The notes below the pieces were generated by a model. That model saw only the letters and a program-made list of their open reading frames with translations. It made no database searches and was not told where the DNA came from. The translations under genes and the position numbers were made by a program. DNA of 64,000 nt from Sipunculus nudus (Eukaryota > Annelida > Sipuncula > Golfingiida > Sipunculidae), in assembly GCA_026874595.1 (NCBI GenBank), contig CM049306.1, positions 90,066,642 to 90,130,641 on the forward strand, read 5' to 3'. Below, one piece after another: positions 21,844 through 31,842 of the stretch (its first letter is position 1; every line of letters begins with the position of its first letter).

Positions 21844-24042
21844 CTTCAACGAAATAATACGAGAGAATCATGTTTATCCGAAAAGAAAATTCATTTGTCC
21901 GTTAATCATTACTTCGAAACGGGAACGTCAGTGACGTGTCACTTATTTGTCATCCCAGCATCATAAAACTAATGCACTTTTTACCATGTGCAAGAACTGA
22001 AATTTTCATCACTGAGTGTTGGTATCTTCTGTGTCAAAGTGTAGATGATTGTTCCAGATCCATTTAGATAAAACAGCAGACTCACAATTTGTAAAGAAAT
22101 AAAGAAAACGATTTTTTGTGATTTTGAAAAAGTTTGCCTAAATTTGTTTGAATAAAGAATTAAAAAATTCTATGCATAAGTTTTAAAGGAAAAGCAGTAT
22201 TTTTTTGTAATTTTGAAAAAAGTGCATAAATTTGCATTATTATTCGGTTTAAAAATTCTGTGCATAAGTTTAAAAGCATACACCTAGCGCTATCAGATAA
22301 AAAAAACTCAAACTCGGTCAATAAGAAGAAGATTTTTTTGTGAACTGTACACGGAGGACGGACTGGCAGACCTCCGTCAGACGCCAGCCGTGAGTACACG
22401 ATTCAAGTAGCATTATATTGGGAATGTTAAGCCTAACTTGAGTTGTGATACAAGCCATAAGGAGGAATGCATTGCAGTGGTCTTAGATCATGTTGTATTC
22501 ACATCGTGGTGAAGAGCTCGTAATCTTAACGACAGATTACGAATTATGAAAAGACACAAAGAATAAACGAGTCATTTCGTATCACATCCAAGTTGGCTGC
22601 TATCCAGTAACGTGTGCGAGCCATGCTTCTATTCATGCGGTCAGAAATTCAACAAACTAGCAGGGGTTTGAACAATATGATCTCGCTTATGGTAGGTGTT
22701 AGGAATTATACTAAAATACACTGGTCGTAGACTCTCTAATGTCAGAGGGCGAAAATGGCGCCAGACAGATAAGCTTATCGGGCCTATGGCCGGATGAGCT
22801 AAACACATATTTCCATTCAACCGAACACTAGCTTAACGTTGGGAGGCCTCTGCCAAGCAAACATGTCTGTGCTATATGTGATATACGCACCCTTTAGGGT
22901 CAATATGGTCATTTATTTACAAAGAAACTGTGTTGCATGATTTGCACATTCATACATAATTAACACATTTTATATTGAAATTAGACCTATGCCAGTGTAT
23001 TTTTAACGTCAGATGCAACAATGAAATTTTAGTTATTCAGATGTGATATTTCAATGTTATAAAGAATTTTCGATTTTTAAGTGCTCTATTTAAAGCATTC
23101 AATAAGAGACGACATGACACTACCTCCAAAAATGATCTTTTCTCTGTTCTTTTATAAAACAAAACTTTCTATAGAAACAAAATTTAAAATTGAATTTTCC
23201 AAACTTTAATGGTACCAGGTTTAAAAAGACATATACTCAATTGAGTCCAATATGAATTTAAACAACTTGTGGATTTACATGTAATTTAAAAGACGGGACT
23301 TTTGACGGAGATGTAACCTTGGGCCCATGAAACAGGACCAATAGTGTGTATCACATGCATGTTCATTCTCCACACAGACTATTTATCAGTGAGTGTCTTC
23401 TACAGATATCCATGCGCTAAGCACGTTTTATACACCATTAACGTCAAGGAATCAAATATTAATAAACTAAGTAATAAATGGGGCAAATACATTGCATGTT
23501 TCGACAACATCCAATCCAAATATTACCAACGTAAAATATTTGTCGGTTAAACATATTTTATATTTTACCAAAGCTGTTTCAATTTTGTGGTGTAATATCC
23601 TCGACGCGGCATTTTAAATATAATCACTTATGTACCTGATTGCTTGGTGATATTTTAAGTGATATACGTTTCTAGAATTGTTGAGGAAGTATGAATAGCA
23701 ATGTGGTAATCCAGTGATACTTGCTATGGTCAGTTTAACATTATGCAACACGGTCACTTGACTGAAATAGAGAGAGGGGATTATAAAGTATAGTCTGTAT
23801 TCATAACAAGCAATATCCAAGAGTTCGAGGGTCACATGTTGTTCACTGTTATTAAAATGCCAGCATTCAGGTCAAGTACGCCTAAATCAATTATAATCTG
23901 CAGGGTCGGTTCATCTCGACTCTGCGCAGCAGACTGCCAGACCGTGTGCACAGTAGGAGCAGGGGCCTTAGATTTTTCCCAAATAGATTTTGTCCCGCCT
24001 GTAAGTTCATGCATATGCAAGCATGCAGGGCACTGTACTTAC
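21844..24042 (-). other. CTLD4 internal intron
   Basis: This phase-0 intron of 2.2 kb splits CTLD4. At 22090-22290 it has two to three degenerate copies of a ~100-bp AT-rich unit with TGATTTTGAAAAAGT and ATTCTATGCATAAGTTT. No gene was seen. Plus-strand open frames over neighbouring exons are antisense shadows. Confidence 0.65.
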
Positions 24043-24263
24043 CGGTTGCGGAACAAACCTTCCTTCATTCTCTCTGTCGTTTGTGAAAAACCATGCTCTT
24101 GACCGGACCATAGGACTCAGAAAACGGTTTATTTCTTCGGAGGTTATCTTGGCCAGATCGCCCCCCCTTTCCCTGCAGTAGGCTTGTCCTTTCTGCCAGG
24201 TCCTGGGTGTGTTTATGACACCATAGCAACTGTCTCTGAATGATCTCCAAGGCAGAGTACAAC
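24043..24263 (-). CDS. CTLD4, first half
   Basis: The 221-nt exon (acceptor TCCTTGACAG, donor CCG|GTAAGTACA) reads CTLPWRSFRDSCYGVINTPR then TWQKGQAYCRERGGDLAKIT then SEEINRFLSPMVRSRAWFFT then NDRENEGRFVPQP. It has the N-terminal CTLD cysteines, the W-A-x-x-C helix and the AWFF-D-EGRF strand shared with CTLD1-3. It enters in phase 1 from the linker at 31306-31371 across the intron that holds the 4.1-kb array. It exits in phase 0. Confidence 0.92.
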
Positions 24264-25178
24264 CTGTCAAGGATGATCAATATCATTTATCAAACAACAC
24301 AAGCCGGCTTGCCTATGGTAAATGACCGAAACCGAACAGGAAAGTGCTCTTGAAAAAAAGGGTAGTCTGTTTTCTTAGTAATACAGAGTAAAAAAACAGT
24401 AAAATTAGCGACAATTCACCTTTTTTTGTAAAAAAAAAAATAGTATTATACCACGCATATTACGTATGTGTGTATGTTATATCGCTGTCCCAAAGTTGGA
24501 AACATACATGATGCACATCCCCCTGCATGAAGACAAGGGCATTTTCCACGTTTTGACACATGCTGGACATTTGCATACACAAAAATTTCGAAGTGTCCCA
24601 TTGTTGCTATATCTGGACTCTTATAGCAGGAGAGAAATAGTATATATGAGAACTACTTTACTGAGGAAAAAGAGCGAAAAAATAATACTTCTTGACAAAA
24701 TATTAGAAAAACATTGAATATTTAGCATTATTTTCAGTAAATCTTCAAAAACATGTGACTTTTTAAAAAATAGTGATATGGCAGACCTGACTAGAAATGC
24801 AGCAAAGTTTGGTTTCTACTCTTGATCATTTATGTTATAATATTGCTAGTTTCTCCGGATATTAACTTGAATACGATTTTTACTAATATATTTACATCAA
24901 TGATTAAACGTAACATTTACTTGAATGATGTCACATATGTAATAAATGCTGTACATCAATATCAGTGTTTTAATACGAAATGATAATTAATTACTCACAC
25001 GTCAAGAAATCCAGATGTACAGTTTATTTTATACAGTAAACGACTGCAACTATATATATATAAATTTAATTTATAATATATGTATATATAAGAAATTAAT
25101 TAACGCTATAAATCAAACATGAACTGAACAAGTTTGCCGTGCATTTAAACATTTAAATATATTCTTTATAAATTACTT
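24264..25178 (-). other. Intron stretch, no feature seen
   Basis: AT-rich intron between CTLD4 and the 1.9-kb transposon. No gene or repeat family was recognised. Confidence 0.6.
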
Positions 25179-27075
25179 GACATATTACGGAAGCGTATTG
25201 CTGCCACCTGGTAAAAGAAAAATAAATTATTTATCTCGTTCGTACGACATACTATCTCGTACGTACGACATACTATCTCGTACGTTCGACATATTATCTC
25301 GTACGTACGACATATTATCTCGTACGTACGACATAATAAATCTTACGGATCTGATTCATAGACTAGACATCATGCCAACAGATATATTTATAAGCAATAT
25401 GTATATGTTAAATAATGTATGTTTTCACATTAACTATATATACAACATTTCCACCTCCTTGCAAACCGCTGGACGAACGTTGAAACTAACACACATACCC
25501 ACATATATCTATTTATTTATAGTATATATTTAAATGCTATTCGATTCACACTTTTTTGTGTGTGTCAAGGTTTCTGTAATATTTCAAGCAAGCGAAATAT
25601 ACATCAAATCGTTGTTTTTGTTAGCTATTTGTTAGCTATACCTCTTGTCCGAACCCTTCCTTCTCCAAAAGGTAGTTTCAATTTGGCAAAGGCAATTTTT
25701 TTTTTCTTATAAATATTATGACAGTCTCATCATTACAACATTATACACTGCTAACAGAATTTAATTACCTGCTTAAAAATGAAATTTCTGTATATGACTG
25801 GCAGACAACGATTTGATAAATTTCATTTCCTTGAAAATTTCCGACACCTAGATACAAAGAAACAATGATAAAACGAATAGACTTTAAATTTATAGCATAA
25901 ATAAATACAGTAAAACCCCGTTGTGTCGAAGTCGAAGGGACTGGTGAATTTACTTCGACACAACCGGAGTTCGAGACAACCGGTGTTCATTATATTCAAC
26001 CTTCTTCGGCCTTGATTATTATCGATAAATACTGTACATGTATAGGGCCTATATTATATAGTCCTTACAAATGTTTGCGTGAAAGAACAACATAAATTTT
26101 ATAATGAATTTATGTATTAATAATAAAAAAGCACATAAGTAACACCAAAATAGGAATAGGTAAATAAAAAAGGGAAGCAGTACAACGTGCTCTATGGCAA
26201 ATAAGAGTCAGTCTGAAAGGTGTCATCTTCCTCCCTATATGTAGAGTTGTGTATGTTTATCCAAGACACAACGAAGATAAGGATTCCATTATGTTTGGTT
26301 TATCAATAGCTTCTCATTTCGAATTAATGTTTTGTCGGCGAGAGAAGAAAGACATGATTATGAGTGATTACATGGTTAAACTGCATGGTAAAAACTGATT
26401 AGGTATGTAAACCATCGCGCCGGATGGGCAAGATCCTTGCCGGTATTAATTATGTAACTGGTCATCACGGCCGTAGGTAAGATTGATCGACCGTGCACAA
26501 CTGTTACCTAAACATTCACGCGGGATGACTTCGAGTTAAGCGATAGAAATACTAGCTGGGGACCAACTAAAAACCTCGACATATCAGGTTTTTCGACACA
26601 TCCGAGTTCGACACAAAAGGGGTTAAATTAGTAAGGTTTTAACTGTTTTTTGCCGGGACTCCACATTCGACTTCGAAACATGCGAGGATTCGACTTGACC
26701 GAGTTCGACACAACGAGGTTTCACTGTAAATACATAAATAAACATATGTATTTTTTCTTTTCAACGGTGTTCCGACGGTTTGCAAGGTGAAGATGTTGTG
26801 TAGTTAGGGTACGAACACGCATTATTTAACATATATATATTGCTTATACATATATCAGTTGGCCTGTTGTGTATTCTGTGAATCAGATGCGTAAGATTAA
26901 TTATGTCGTACGTACGAGATAATATGTCGTACGTACGAGATACTATGTCGTACGTACGAGATACTATGTCGTACGTACGAGAAAGTATGTCGTACGTACG
27001 AGATAGTATGTCGTACGTACGAGGTAAACAATTTATTTTTCTTTTACCAGGTGACAGCAATACGCTTCCGTATCT
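25179..27075. mobile_element. 1.9-kb inverted-repeat DNA transposon, non-autonomous
   Basis: Left (GACATATTACGGAAGCG) and right arms are inverted copies over about 300 bp. Each arm shares GTATTGCTGCCACCTGGTAA and five (left) or six (right) 21-bp tandem units containing TCTCGTACGTACGACATA. An 8-bp direct repeat, AATTACTT, at 25171-25178 and 27076-27083 looks like the target duplication. A younger pogo-like element is nested inside at 25908-26726. No transposase was found. Open frames within the arms are just the 21-bp repeat read through. The superfamily is not assigned. Confidence 0.85.
25908..26726. mobile_element. pogo/Tigger-like MITE, 819 bp, nested
   Basis: The termini are CAGTAAAACCCCGTTGTGTC and its inverse, GACACAACGAGGTTTCACTG. 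They are flanked by TA on both sides (25906-25907, 26727-26728), as expected for Tc1/mariner-pogo insertion. TTCGACACA motifs recur near both ends. No transposase is encoded. The insertion interrupts the larger inverted-repeat element. Confidence 0.85.
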
Positions 27076-27099
27076 AATTACTTATTGAATCATAGTACA

Positions 27100-30000
27100 C
27101 AGTCGTCTCAGTTCACCTGGCCGGTTACTGTTTGTATCAGAATACACTGCCATTCGCCACAACTCCCCTGGCCGGCTACTGTTTGTATCAGAATACACTG
27201 CCATTCGCCACAACTCACCTGACCGGCTACTGGGTGTTAGAGTACACGATCTTTCATCACTACTCACATGACCGGCTACTGGGTGTCACAGTACACAATC
27301 GTTCGTCACTACTCACCTGACCGGCTACTGGGTGTTAGAGTACACGATCGTTCGTCACTACACATCTGACCGGCTACTGGGCGTTAGAGTACACGATCGT
27401 TCGTCACTACTCACCTGACCGGCTACTGGGTGTCACAGTACACAATCGTTCGTCACAACTCACCTGACCGGCTACTGGGTGTTAGAGTACACAATCGTTC
27501 GTCATTACTCACCTGACCGGCTACTGGGCTTTGGAGTACACGATCGTTCGTCACTACTCACCTGACCGGCTACTGGGTGTCACAGTACACAATCGTTCGT
27601 CACCATTCACCTGACCGGCTACTGGGTGTTAGAATACACGATCGTTCGTCACTACTCATCTGACAGGCTACTGGGTGTTAGAGTACACAATCGTTCGTCA
27701 CTACTCATCTGACCGGCTACTGGGCGTCAGAGTACACGATCGTTCGTCACTACTCATCTGACCTGCTACTGGACGTCGGAGTACACGATCGTTCGTCACT
27801 ACTCACCTGACCGGCTACTGTGTGTTAGAGTACACGATCGTTTGTCACTACTCAACTGACCGGCTACTGGGTGTTAGAGTACATGATCGTTCGTCACTAC
27901 TCATCTACTGGCTACTGGGTTTTAGAGTACACGATCGTTCGTCACTACTCATCTGACCAGCTACTGGGCGTCGGAGTACACGATCGTTCGTCACTACTCA
28001 CCTGACCGGCTACTGGGTGTTGGAGTACACCATCTTCGTCACTACTCATCTGACCGGCTACTGGGTGTCAGAGTACACTATCGTTCGTCACTACTCATCT
28101 GACCGGCTACTGGGCGTCGGAGTACACGATCATTCGTCACTACTCACCTGACCGGCTACTGGGCGTTAGAGTGCACGATCATTCGTCACTACTCGTCTGA
28201 CCGGCTACTGGGCGTTGGAGTACACGATCGTTCGTCACTACTCACCTGACCGGCTACTGGGCGTTAGAGTACAATAACGTTCGTCACTACTCACCTGATC
28301 GGCTACTGGGCGTTAGAGTACACGATCGTTCGTCACTACTCGTCTGACCAGCTACTGGGCCTTGGAGTACACGATCGTTCGTCACTACTCGTCTGACCGG
28401 CTACTGGGCCTTGGAGTACATGATCGTTCGTCACTACTGCCCTGACCGGCTACTGGGCGTTAGAGTACACGATCGTTCGTCACTACTCACCTGACCGGCA
28501 ACTGGGCGTTAGAGTACACGATCGTTCGTCACTACTCACCTGATCGGCTACTGGGTGTTAGAGTTCACGATCGTTCGTCACTACTCGTCTGACCGGCTAC
28601 TGGGCGTTGGAGTACACGATCGTTCGTCACTACTCACCTGACCGGCTACTGGGCGTTAGAGTAAACGATCGTTCGTCACTACTCGTCTGACCGGCTACTG
28701 GGCGTTGGAGTACACGATCATTCGTCACTACTCGTCTGACCGGCTACTGGGCGTTGGAGTACACGATCGTTCGTCACTACTCACCTGACCGGCTACTGGG
28801 CGTTAGAGTACAATAACGTTCGTCACTACTCACCTGATCGGCTACTGGGCGTTAGAGTACACGATCGTTCGTCACTACTCGTCTGACCAGCTACTGGGCC
28901 TTGGAGTACACAATCGTTCGTCACTACTCGTCTGACCGGCTACTGGGCCTTGGAGTACATGATCGTTCGTCACTACTGACCTGACCGGCTACTGGGCGTT
29001 AGAGTACACGATCGTTCGTCACTACTCACCTGACCGGCAACTGGGCGTTAGAGTACACGATCGTTCGTCACTACTCACCTGATCGGCTACTGGGTGTTAG
29101 AGTTCACGATCGTTCGTCACTACTCGTCTGACCGGCTACTGGGCGTTTGAGTACACGATCGTTTGTCACTACTCACCTGACTGGCTACTGGGCGTTAGAG
29201 TACACGATCGTTCGTCACTACTCACCTGACCGGCTACTGGGTGTTAGAGTACACGATCGTTCGTCACTACTCATATGACCTGCTACTGGGCGTCGGAGTA
29301 CACGATCGTTCGTCACTACTCACCAGACCGGCTACTGTGTGTTAGAGTACACGATCGTTCGTCACTACTCAACTGACCGGCTACTGGGTGTTAGAGTACA
29401 TGATCGTTCGTCACTACTCATCTACCGGCTACTGGGTGTTAGAGTACACGATCGTTCGTCACTACTCATCTGATTAGCTACTGGGTGTCGGAGTACACGA
29501 TCGTTCGTCACTATTCACCTGACCGGCTACTGGGTGTTGGAGTACACCATCGTTCGTCACTACTCATCTGACCGGCTACTTGGTGTCAGAGTACACGATC
29601 GTTCGTCACTACTCATCTGACCGGCTACTGGGCGTCGGAGTACACGATCGTTCATCACTACTCACCTGATCGGCTACTGGGCGTTAGAGTACACGATCGT
29701 TCGTCACTACTCATCTGACCGGCTACTGGGCTTTGGAGTACACGATCATTCGTCACTACTCACCTGACCGGCTACTGGGCGTTAGAATACATGATCATTC
29801 GTCACTACTCGTCTGACCGGCTACTGGGCGTTGGAGTACACAATCGTTCGTCACTACTCACCTGACCGGCTACTGGGCGTTAGAGTACACGATCGTTCGT
29901 CACTACTCACCTGAACGGCTACTGGGCGTTAGAGTACACGATCGTTCATCACTACTCACCTGATCGGCTACTGGGCGTTAGAGTACACGATCGTTCGTCA

Positions 30001-31260
30001 CTACTCATCTGACCGGCTACTGGGCGTTAGAGTACACGATCGTTCGTCACTACTCGTCTGACCGGCTACTGGGCGTTGGAGTACACGATCGTTCGTCACT
30101 ACTCACCTGACCGGCTACTGGGCATTAGAGTACACGATCGTTCATCACTACTCGTCTGACCGGCTACTGGGCGTTGGAGTACACGATCGTTCGTCACTAC
30201 TCACCTGACTGGCTACTTGGCGTTAGAGTACACGATCGTTCGTCACTACTCACCTGACCGGCTACTGGGCGTTAGAGTTCACGATCGTTCGTCACTACTC
30301 ACCTGACCGGCTACTGGGCGTTAGAGTACACGATCGTTCGTCACTACTCGTCTGACCGGCTACTGGGCGTTGGAGTACACGATCGTTCGTTACTACTCAC
30401 CTGACCGGCTACTGGGTGTTAGAGTACACGATCGTTCATCACTACTCACCTGACCGGCTACTGGGTGTTAGAGTACACGATCGTTTGTCACTACTCACCT
30501 GACCGGCTACTGGGCGTTAGAGTACACGATCGTTCGTCACTAGTTGTCTGACCGGCTACTGGGCGTTGGAGTACACGATCGTTCGTCACTACTCACCTGA
30601 CCGGCTACTAGGTGTTAGAGTACACGATCGTTCGTCACTACTCACCTGACCGGCTACTGGGCGTTAGAGTACACGATCGTTCGTCACTACACGTCTGACC
30701 GGCTACTAGGCGTTGGAGTACACGATCGTTCGTCACTACTCACCTGACCGGCTACTGGGCGTTAGAGTACATGATCGTTCGTCACTACTCACCTGACCGG
30801 CTACTGGGCGTTAGAGTACACGATCGTTCCTCACTACTCACCTGACTGGCTACTGAATGTTAGAGTACACGATCGTTCGTCACTACTCATCTGACCGGCT
30901 ACTGGGTGTTAGAATACACGATCGTTCGTCACTACTCATCTGACTGGCTATTGGGCGTCGGAGTACACGATCATTCGTCACTACTCACTTGACTGGCTAC
31001 TGGGCGTTAGAGTACACGAACGTTCGTCACTACTCACCTGACTGGCTACTGGGCGTTAGAGTACACGATCGTTCGTAACTACTCTTCTGACCGGTTACTA
31101 GGTGTTATAGTTCACCATCGTTCATCACCACTCACCTGGTCAGTTACTTGGGTGTTAGAGAACACGATCATTCCTTACCTCTCACCTGGTCGGCTACTTG
31201 GGTGTTAAAGTTCACGATCGTTCTTTTCCACTCACCTTACCGTTTACTCGTTTTACACCA
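27100..31260. repeat. 4.1-kb minisatellite, 49-bp unit, about 84 copies, built on a splice donor
   Basis: The plus-strand unit is ACTCACCTGACCGGCTACTG, GGCGTTAGAGTACACGATCG, TTCGTCACT (49 bp, in blocks). On the minus, transcribed strand each full unit reads CTAACGCCCAGTAGCC then GGTCAG|GTGAGTAGT. That is a branch-point-like CTAAC followed by a consensus 5' splice site. The array starts just past the donor of the exon at 31306 (CAGCTAG|GTGAGTAGT), with diverged units at 31100-31260 grading into that exon end. Subtypes TCATCTG and TCGTCTG destroy the GT. A 539-bp (11-unit) block recurs at about 28271 and 28810. The array lies wholly within the intron between the linker exon and CTLD4. Confidence 0.95.
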
Positions 31261-31305
31261 CTAACCTGGCCAGTTACTTTGCACGGTTGTGTATTTACTA
31301 CTCAC

Positions 31306-31371
31306 CTAGCTGGCTAGCCTGTGTATTATTGTTGCCGTCCATATCAGCTTCTGTGACTTGATTCACCGGAT
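31306..31371 (-). CDS. Linker exon (phase 1-1), 66 nt, founder of the 49-bp array
   Basis: Acceptor CTGTAATTCAAG and donor CTAG|GTGAGTAGT bound an exon reading DPVNQVTEADMDGNNNTQAS then QL. It is Asn/Gln/Asp/Thr-rich and has no cysteine, so it is probably a flexible spacer between CTLD3 and CTLD4. NNT is a potential N-glycosylation sequon. Phases fit both neighbours. Its last bases plus the donor match the unit of the adjacent minisatellite. Confidence 0.75.
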
Positions 31372-31669: not shown

Positions 31670-31805
31670 CTTTCTCACACAGAACGCCCAATCTGACCAT
31701 ACAATGTGCATCATTCCATTTTCCACTGGGTATCATCAGAGTAGCACAATCTTCACTACCTTCGCCGTCGCTTGGTTCCCCCTTATTCCAGTTCTTGTAC
31801 CTCAA
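31670..31805 (-). CDS. CTLD3, second half
   Basis: The 136-nt exon reads LRYKNWNKGEPSDGEGSEDC then ATLMIPSGKWNDAHCMVRLG then VLCEK. It is a CTLD C-terminal half with WND intact but EPS in place of EPN. The Asn-to-Ser change removes a side chain that coordinates Ca2+ and sugar in classical mannose-type CTLDs, so specificity probably differs from CTLD2 and CTLD4. Acceptor ATATCAAAG, donor AAAG|GTAGCTTA. Phase 0 in, 1 out. Confidence 0.92.
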
Positions 31806-31842
31806 CTTTGATATCGAAAAAAAAGCGAGATATCAGACACGG

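Follow-up and report, generated by a model that had tools for sequence, protein, structure and literature searches.

Why should an intron carry, next to a coding exon, what look like dozens of tandem copies of that exon's own 5' splice site? The question is raised by a 64,000-nucleotide stretch of the 1.43-Gb genome of the sipunculan Sipunculus nudus (C1:90066642-90130641, contig CM049306.1, hereafter the window), in which a minus-strand gene with C-type lectin domains, each split across two exons, holds a tandem array of a 49-bp unit in an intron of about 7 kb. The array, studied here on the minus strand, is very probably a mirage, that is to say a boundary-spanning minisatellite that arose by tandem duplication at the donor of a short linker exon and was later expanded by unequal exchange. 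The features on which this view is built are the following, with a slash marking the exon/intron junction.

31306..31371, minus strand: linker exon of 66 nt and phase 1-1 between two C-type lectin domains (PVNQVTEADMDGNNNTQASQL), read from the sequence and its open frame
31297..31308, minus strand: authentic 5' splice site TAG/GTGAGTAGT, with 27 of 29 bp around the donor in common with a paralog
27094..31248, minus strand: the 49-bp repeat array, which wrap-around parsing divides into 84 complete and two partial units
31236..31305, minus strand: degenerate exon-proximal units of irregular spacing, with a donor-like GTTAGTGG at 31265 and the next donor at 31235 (by reading)
28197..29127, minus strand: internal duplication, in which the eight consecutive units at 28736-29127 recur at 28197-28588 (lag of 11 units or 539 bp, at most one difference per unit)

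Tandem Repeats Finder (TRF) recognized a single array at 27153-31242 with a period of 49, 83.4 copies and 89% matches. Each unit joins about 11-13 nt of exon-end sequence to 36-38 nt of intron-start sequence and so spans an exon/intron junction, and its exon side shares homology with the last 11-13 nt of the linker exon (CTAGCCAGCTAG). An initial annotation of this DNA had described about 84 units over some 4.1 kb beside a linker exon with its donor; TRF and the wrap-around parse confirmed the array, and the exon and its splice site were borne out as well. According to the parse, regular complete units begin at 31235 and follow each other at a spacing of 49 in 77 of 84 steps. Mismatches to the consensus number 8-11 in the first three complete units and 11-13 in the last two, while the middle of the array has a mean of 2.9. 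Such diverged edges, together with the recurrence of a block of eight units at a lag of 11 units, are the usual marks of unequal exchange. Used as a DNA query, three array units gave 37 matches, all of them inside their own array, and the exon with the start of the array found one genomic place, in searches that skip very common words. An origin from a transposon or a dispersed satellite was rejected on the basis of these two queries, which matched this locus alone.

Whether the donor or the array came first can be approached through a paralogous gene located 2.7 Mb away, found with the lectin exon that precedes the linker exon. Two lectin coding regions of the window are needed for the comparison.

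31671..31832, minus strand: exon, second half of the preceding C-type lectin domain (PF00059, 2.1e-8)
24010..24276, minus strand: next lectin coding region past the array intron, first half of the following C-type lectin domain (PF00059, 7.4e-7)

The second-half lectin exon of the paralog (C1:92806734-92806889) is 60% identical to that of the window and its first-half lectin exon 81% identical. Its linker exon (C1:92807299-92807340) measures 42 nt, has phase 1-1 and is homologous to the 66-nt exon: the exon end and donor (ACTAGCCAGCCAG/GTGAGTAGTAAATTCAC) align with the window over 29 bp at 93% (27/29, blastn), and the exon start (ATCCG.T.AATC) as well as the phase match by reading. The counterpart of the 24010..24276 region follows about 1 kb after this linker exon, and the intervening intron (~1 kb) is devoid of a donor array, TRF on L028 finding only a TAA repeat. 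Since the paralog possesses the exon end and the donor but not the array, the donor most likely preceded the array, which would most likely have arisen at a pre-existing splice site, as judged from the two sequences. It speaks against this order of events that the paralog may have lost an array of its own; a loss is possible but takes more steps. The initial annotation had already suggested that the array grew from the donor, and on this point the paralog agrees with it. The evidence that it gave, namely that the first units past the exon are intermediate in sequence, did not stand: divergence marks either edge of the array, and the intermediate units alone give no direction.

In the reverse order, the array would be older than the donor, which the exon would have acquired from an edge unit by exonization of a satellite. 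This view draws on the same homology between exon end and unit, which in itself is silent about direction. It is disfavoured and very improbable: the paralog has the exon, its phase, its start, its end and its donor without any array, and other arrays of this genome (see below) start at conserved coding exons (TOM20-, ABCC- and SRPK1-like) that are unlikely to be derived from a satellite.

Whether the likeness between exon boundary and repeat unit goes beyond chance is a check that the initial annotation had itself proposed. Among 71 GTRAGT sites outside the array, the paralog donor alone reached the window/paralog boundary score and the other 70 fell below it. When the donor 9-mer was planted in random local sequence, the paralog score was reached in 15 or 19 of 5000 trials and the window score in 35 or 0 of 5000, depending on which of two scoring schemes was used. 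On the other side of the balance, the flanks were weak by themselves once the donor had been removed, with shuffle p values of 0.16-0.20 on the exon side and about 0.30 on the intron side. An anchored ungapped test gave 1/20000 but, its range having been picked after the alignment was viewed, it was not used as support. The check thus came out positive for the boundary that contains the donor and not significant for the flanks without it, and the unit appears from its sequence to include both exon-end and intron-start sequence. An ordinary intronic minisatellite that resembles a donor by chance would fit the weak flank-only tests, and it would fit a window that holds many tandem repeats in a genome where 9-mers unrelated to splicing also form arrays. 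It is nevertheless disfavoured and extremely improbable, as the array begins at the donor of a paralog-conserved exon, the exon ends of other genes appear alike and the planted-donor trials reached the scores only 0-35 times in 5000.

Structures of this type have been little studied and are known from lancelets; Canestro et al. 2002 is reportedly the original report. Under the name of mirages, the accessible parts of two papers describe exon/intron boundaries of lancelet genes that have been duplicated in tandem in the manner of minisatellites, namely in Adh3 and the globins BflGb6 and BflGb9 (PMC3087553) and in troponin C and PGBD5 (PMC3902484). Length polymorphism and somatic instability are among the features given there, and regular splicing is reported to be undisturbed (PMC3087553, PMC3902484). 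As far as these portions of the papers go, the likeness is close. Lancelet units span the exon/intron boundary and adjoin an authentic one; in the window, the array appears to lie directly at an authentic exon boundary, in view of the paralog-conserved exon ends and phase and of the flanking PF00059 exons. AG/GT signals are present in many but not all lancelet units, and here GT is kept in 47 of 84 units while 39 of 85 junctions read exactly CAGGTGAGT. Edge units are diverged in both, around a homogenized centre in the present case, and the 49-bp unit falls within the 10-72 bp range given for Adh3. Differences were also noted with what these sources contain. The array comprises 84 units over 4.1 kb compared with 6 and 3 units in two BflGb6 haplotypes, such arrays were seen next to many different exons in this 1.43-Gb animal genome, and the real donor is predicted to pair with U1 more weakly than its copies. 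No account of such boundary arrays outside lancelets was found in the searches made of the open-access literature, and the present locus is probably a mirage-type structure in another lineage; lancelet genomes are also far smaller than this one.

How the array may have been formed and tolerated can be proposed as follows. A stretch across the end of the linker exon and its 5' splice site would have been tandemly duplicated to give the 49-bp unit, and unequal exchange would then have expanded the units to 84 copies. The spliceosome would use the first, exon-proximal donor, the later ones being removed as part of the intron, so that the protein is kept. With the exon still being defined by its first donor, the array would be tolerated, and it may represent a near-neutral by-product of tandem duplication in a repeat-rich genome. 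Related processes have been discussed elsewhere. In the parts available, one of the mirage papers considers a tandem-duplication model of intron gain (PMC3087553), and the gain of introns through AGGT proto-splice sites duplicated in tandem in the genome (PMC4974935) likewise involves tandem duplication that carries splice signals, whereas here an existing intron has been lengthened and new intron positions were neither sought nor found. Tandem repeats within human genes that alter gene structure (PMC2812944) are comparable, judging by the title of that work, in being tandem repeats inside genes.

The presence of so many donors leads to another possibility, namely that the array is a regulatory decoy whose donors would bind the U1 small nuclear ribonucleoprotein and thereby delay or redirect the splicing of the linker exon, or supply an isoform that is unproductive. 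With ATACTTACCTG taken as the 5' end of U1, which is how the one genomic U1 gene checked (L087) begins, the predicted duplex reaches -11.8 kcal/mol for the real donor and -13.4 for the commonest unit donor. Thirty-nine of the 85 junctions have GT and are predicted to pair with U1 no less strongly than the real donor does, 36 of them at -13.4. Also in line with a decoy, read-through past the real donor adds GE and then meets TAG TAA, as the initial annotation had anticipated in claiming an immediate in-frame stop. With TAG TAA in frame right behind the exon, the products of any donor beyond the first would all share one truncated protein end. The dozens of consensus donors announced by that annotation are there in part, as the exact junctions and the GT-bearing units show, but the remaining 37 of 84 units have lost GT, which argues against a decoy function. 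In the same way, lancelet mirages are reported to leave splicing undisturbed (PMC3087553, PMC3902484, in their accessible parts), and arrays of many different sequences adjoin different exons in this genome, which points to mutation as the cause and not to a single regulatory design. A decoy function, which the initial annotation had raised together with altered splicing or polyadenylation, is regarded as improbable. As a separate observation, a search for U1 small nuclear RNA gave 42 matches from 42 candidates scored, all with the same score, in two tandem clusters (C6 50.26-50.37 Mb and 88.24-88.30 Mb) whose members are mostly about 2.8-2.9 kb apart.

The loss of GT could itself be informative if selection removed decoy donors by breaking GT faster than other positions. 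Among the 79 core units, G at +1 ranks first (18 parsimony changes) and T at +2 fourth (13) of the 49 columns, compared with means of 1.9 in the 37 other non-CpG columns and 6.4 in the 10 CpG columns, and donor positions +3 to +6 are nearly constant (2, 2, 3 and 0 steps). However, column 28, located 21 nt upstream of the donor and without a known splicing role, is as changeable as GT with 16 steps, and the two are linked: when C is found at column 28, the next donor reads AC instead of GT in 14 of 25 cases, compared with 1 of 58 otherwise (Fisher p 4e-8). Moreover, the change from AC to AT is a CpG transition. The units of the array fall into linked subtypes, and the loss of GT may mostly reflect one subtype spread by exchange, so that selection is unproven and, in our opinion, rather unlikely. 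The other variable sites include CpG columns, as would be expected of a methylated array.

The array does not stand alone in the genome, which was searched for three CAGGTRAGT motifs spaced 20-50 bp apart, which gave 836 matches (443 and 393 by strand). Among the matches listed, from C1 to the start of C5, at least 28 distinct donor arrays were recognized, the 49-bp array included. Upstream edges were read for 26 of these 28, L040 and L083 being left out because their start was not reached, and an exon was called from an acceptor and an open frame with an end that recurs in the units. Among these listed arrays, the first donor was read as the end of an exon-like stretch in 18 of 26, again with the 49-bp array included.

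Arrays read as starting at an exon end: the window, L038, L048, L049, L051, L064, L065, L066, L068, L069, L072, L073, L074, L076, L077, L080, L081 and L082

L066 is a weak case, its array beginning about 65 nt further on. In 16 of the 18, a stretch of 10-31 nt before the first donor is found again in a later copy, L066 and the window being weaker in this respect. Since such recurrence is also seen in arrays where no exon was seen, it tells only that the unit extends over both sides of the donor.

Protein similarity was then considered for the 17 exon peptides other than that of the window, all compared with Pfam and seven of them with PDB (L048, L051, L066, L074, L077, L080 and L082). The relatives found are these.

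L051: ABC_membrane at 1.9e-4 (under the Pfam curated cut-off) and ABCC2 at 4.7e-8, with similarity up to the last residue before the donor
L068: LRR at 1.6e-5, under the Pfam curated cut-off
L069: MAS20 at 5e-12
L073: Kunitz at 4e-20
L077: dynein intermediate chain at 6.5e-12 (PDB), with similarity up to the last residue before the donor
L049: a weak relative at 0.018

The Pfam search at E<=0.05 gave no match for L038, L048, L064, L065, L066, L072, L074, L076, L077, L080, L081 and L082, nor for L085 (described below) or for the ambiguous and negative arrays L036, L050, L067 and L086, and the PDB search found no relative of L048, L066, L074, L080 and L082.

The triple pattern does not capture every array. 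Among the 100 single-motif sites of C1:0-6.35 Mb, three further arrays were found with spacings of about 62, 111-116 and 50. A reading of their first donors, not extended to the units, placed this donor at the end of an exon-like stretch in two of them (L084 and L085) but not in L086.

L084, C1:2461700-2462400: TPR-like exon, TPR at 1.3e-6, under the cut-off
L085: SRPK1 at 5.6e-13 (PDB), with similarity to the last residue

At L084, tandem repeats also lie upstream, with a unit that seemingly contains an acceptor and exon start (ATTCCAG/ATTGGTCAGCTTGTATATAAACAAGG..), and more donor copies are found downstream. Acceptor-side arrays may thus occur too, beside donor-side ones.

Control motifs place these numbers in context. 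Raw triple matches amounted to 836 for the donor motif, 189 for its reversal, 552 for the rotated GTRAGTCAG and 569 for the reversal of the rotated motif, but raw matches are dominated by few long arrays. When distinct arrays were counted, the rotated motif gave 5 compared with 18 for the donor motif over C1, C2 and C3:0-89.6 Mb. Single CAGGTRAGT sites numbered 26,382 and those of the reversed control 19,426. A per-donor rate of array birth was dropped, as single-site counts are inflated by arrays (35 of 100 listed sites in three arrays).

Several of these results weigh against recurrence at exon ends. No exon was seen in 5 of 26 arrays (L070, L071, L075, L078 and L079) and 3 of 26 were ambiguous (L036, L050 and L067). 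The count of 18 comes from a reading of acceptors and open frames that was done by eye and was not blind, a protein relative at E<0.001 was found for only 5 of 17 peptides (L051, L068, L069, L073 and L077), and the reversed motif gave 5 arrays compared with 2 for the donor motif in C1:0-76.5 Mb. The number of donor arrays is consequently only moderately higher than that of controls, and what sets donor arrays apart is that the majority of those read begin at exon-like ends, the exon reading covering donor arrays only. Taken with these points, recurrence at other exon ends of the genome is supported by reading and, in part, by protein similarity.

A wider proposal can be derived from the survey, and we would give it about even chances. 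It states that working 5' splice sites are amplified in tandem, widely and recurrently, at the ends of coding exons, including those of core genes (TOM20-, SRPK1- and ABCC-like). The arrays would be natural alleles in which the first-transcribed donor must be chosen over copies, up to dozens of them, that are as strong or stronger and much alike in exon context, so that position decides, and the longest arrays may lose GT under selection against decoys. If transcripts confirm it, these loci would provide natural experiments on donor choice in which the U1 site and the nearby exon context are near-identical and only order and distance differ. The arrays further suggest that genes can accumulate dozens of copies of a splice site without obvious harm to coding exons, which bears on intron lengthening and on the model in which introns are gained by tandem duplication. 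The genome-wide recurrence and the size of the 49-bp array are the points of most interest.

With regard to the host gene, PF00059 was recognized in 7 of 10 stretches tested, the remaining three corresponding to SRCR, to a stabilin-type EGF (under the cut-off) and to a stretch without a match. According to TRF, the window is rich in tandem repeats. A near-palindromic 21-bp unit (TATCTCGTACGTACGACATAC) forms two short arrays, at 25232-25335 and 26902-27027. Inverted to each other and about 1.6 kb apart, they sit in the same intron just past the distal edge of the 49-bp array, and look like the ends of a foldback-type element. At 1278-1715 of the window, a 42-bp tandem array leaves both strands open for about 135-140 codons.

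Finally, haemocyanin domains gave no match in the assembly, a negative that carries no information, and a search for the COX1 family gave 11 matches, one of them a short piece on C5 and the other ten on contigs C60 and above. COX1-family genes open in the bacterial code were found on C60, C61, C62, C66, C72, C74, C75, C89 and C123. The C123 stretch, read by eye, carries a ccoN-ccoO-ccoP-like run (cbb3 oxidase) that looks bacterial, and a bacterium therefore seems to have been present in the sample.

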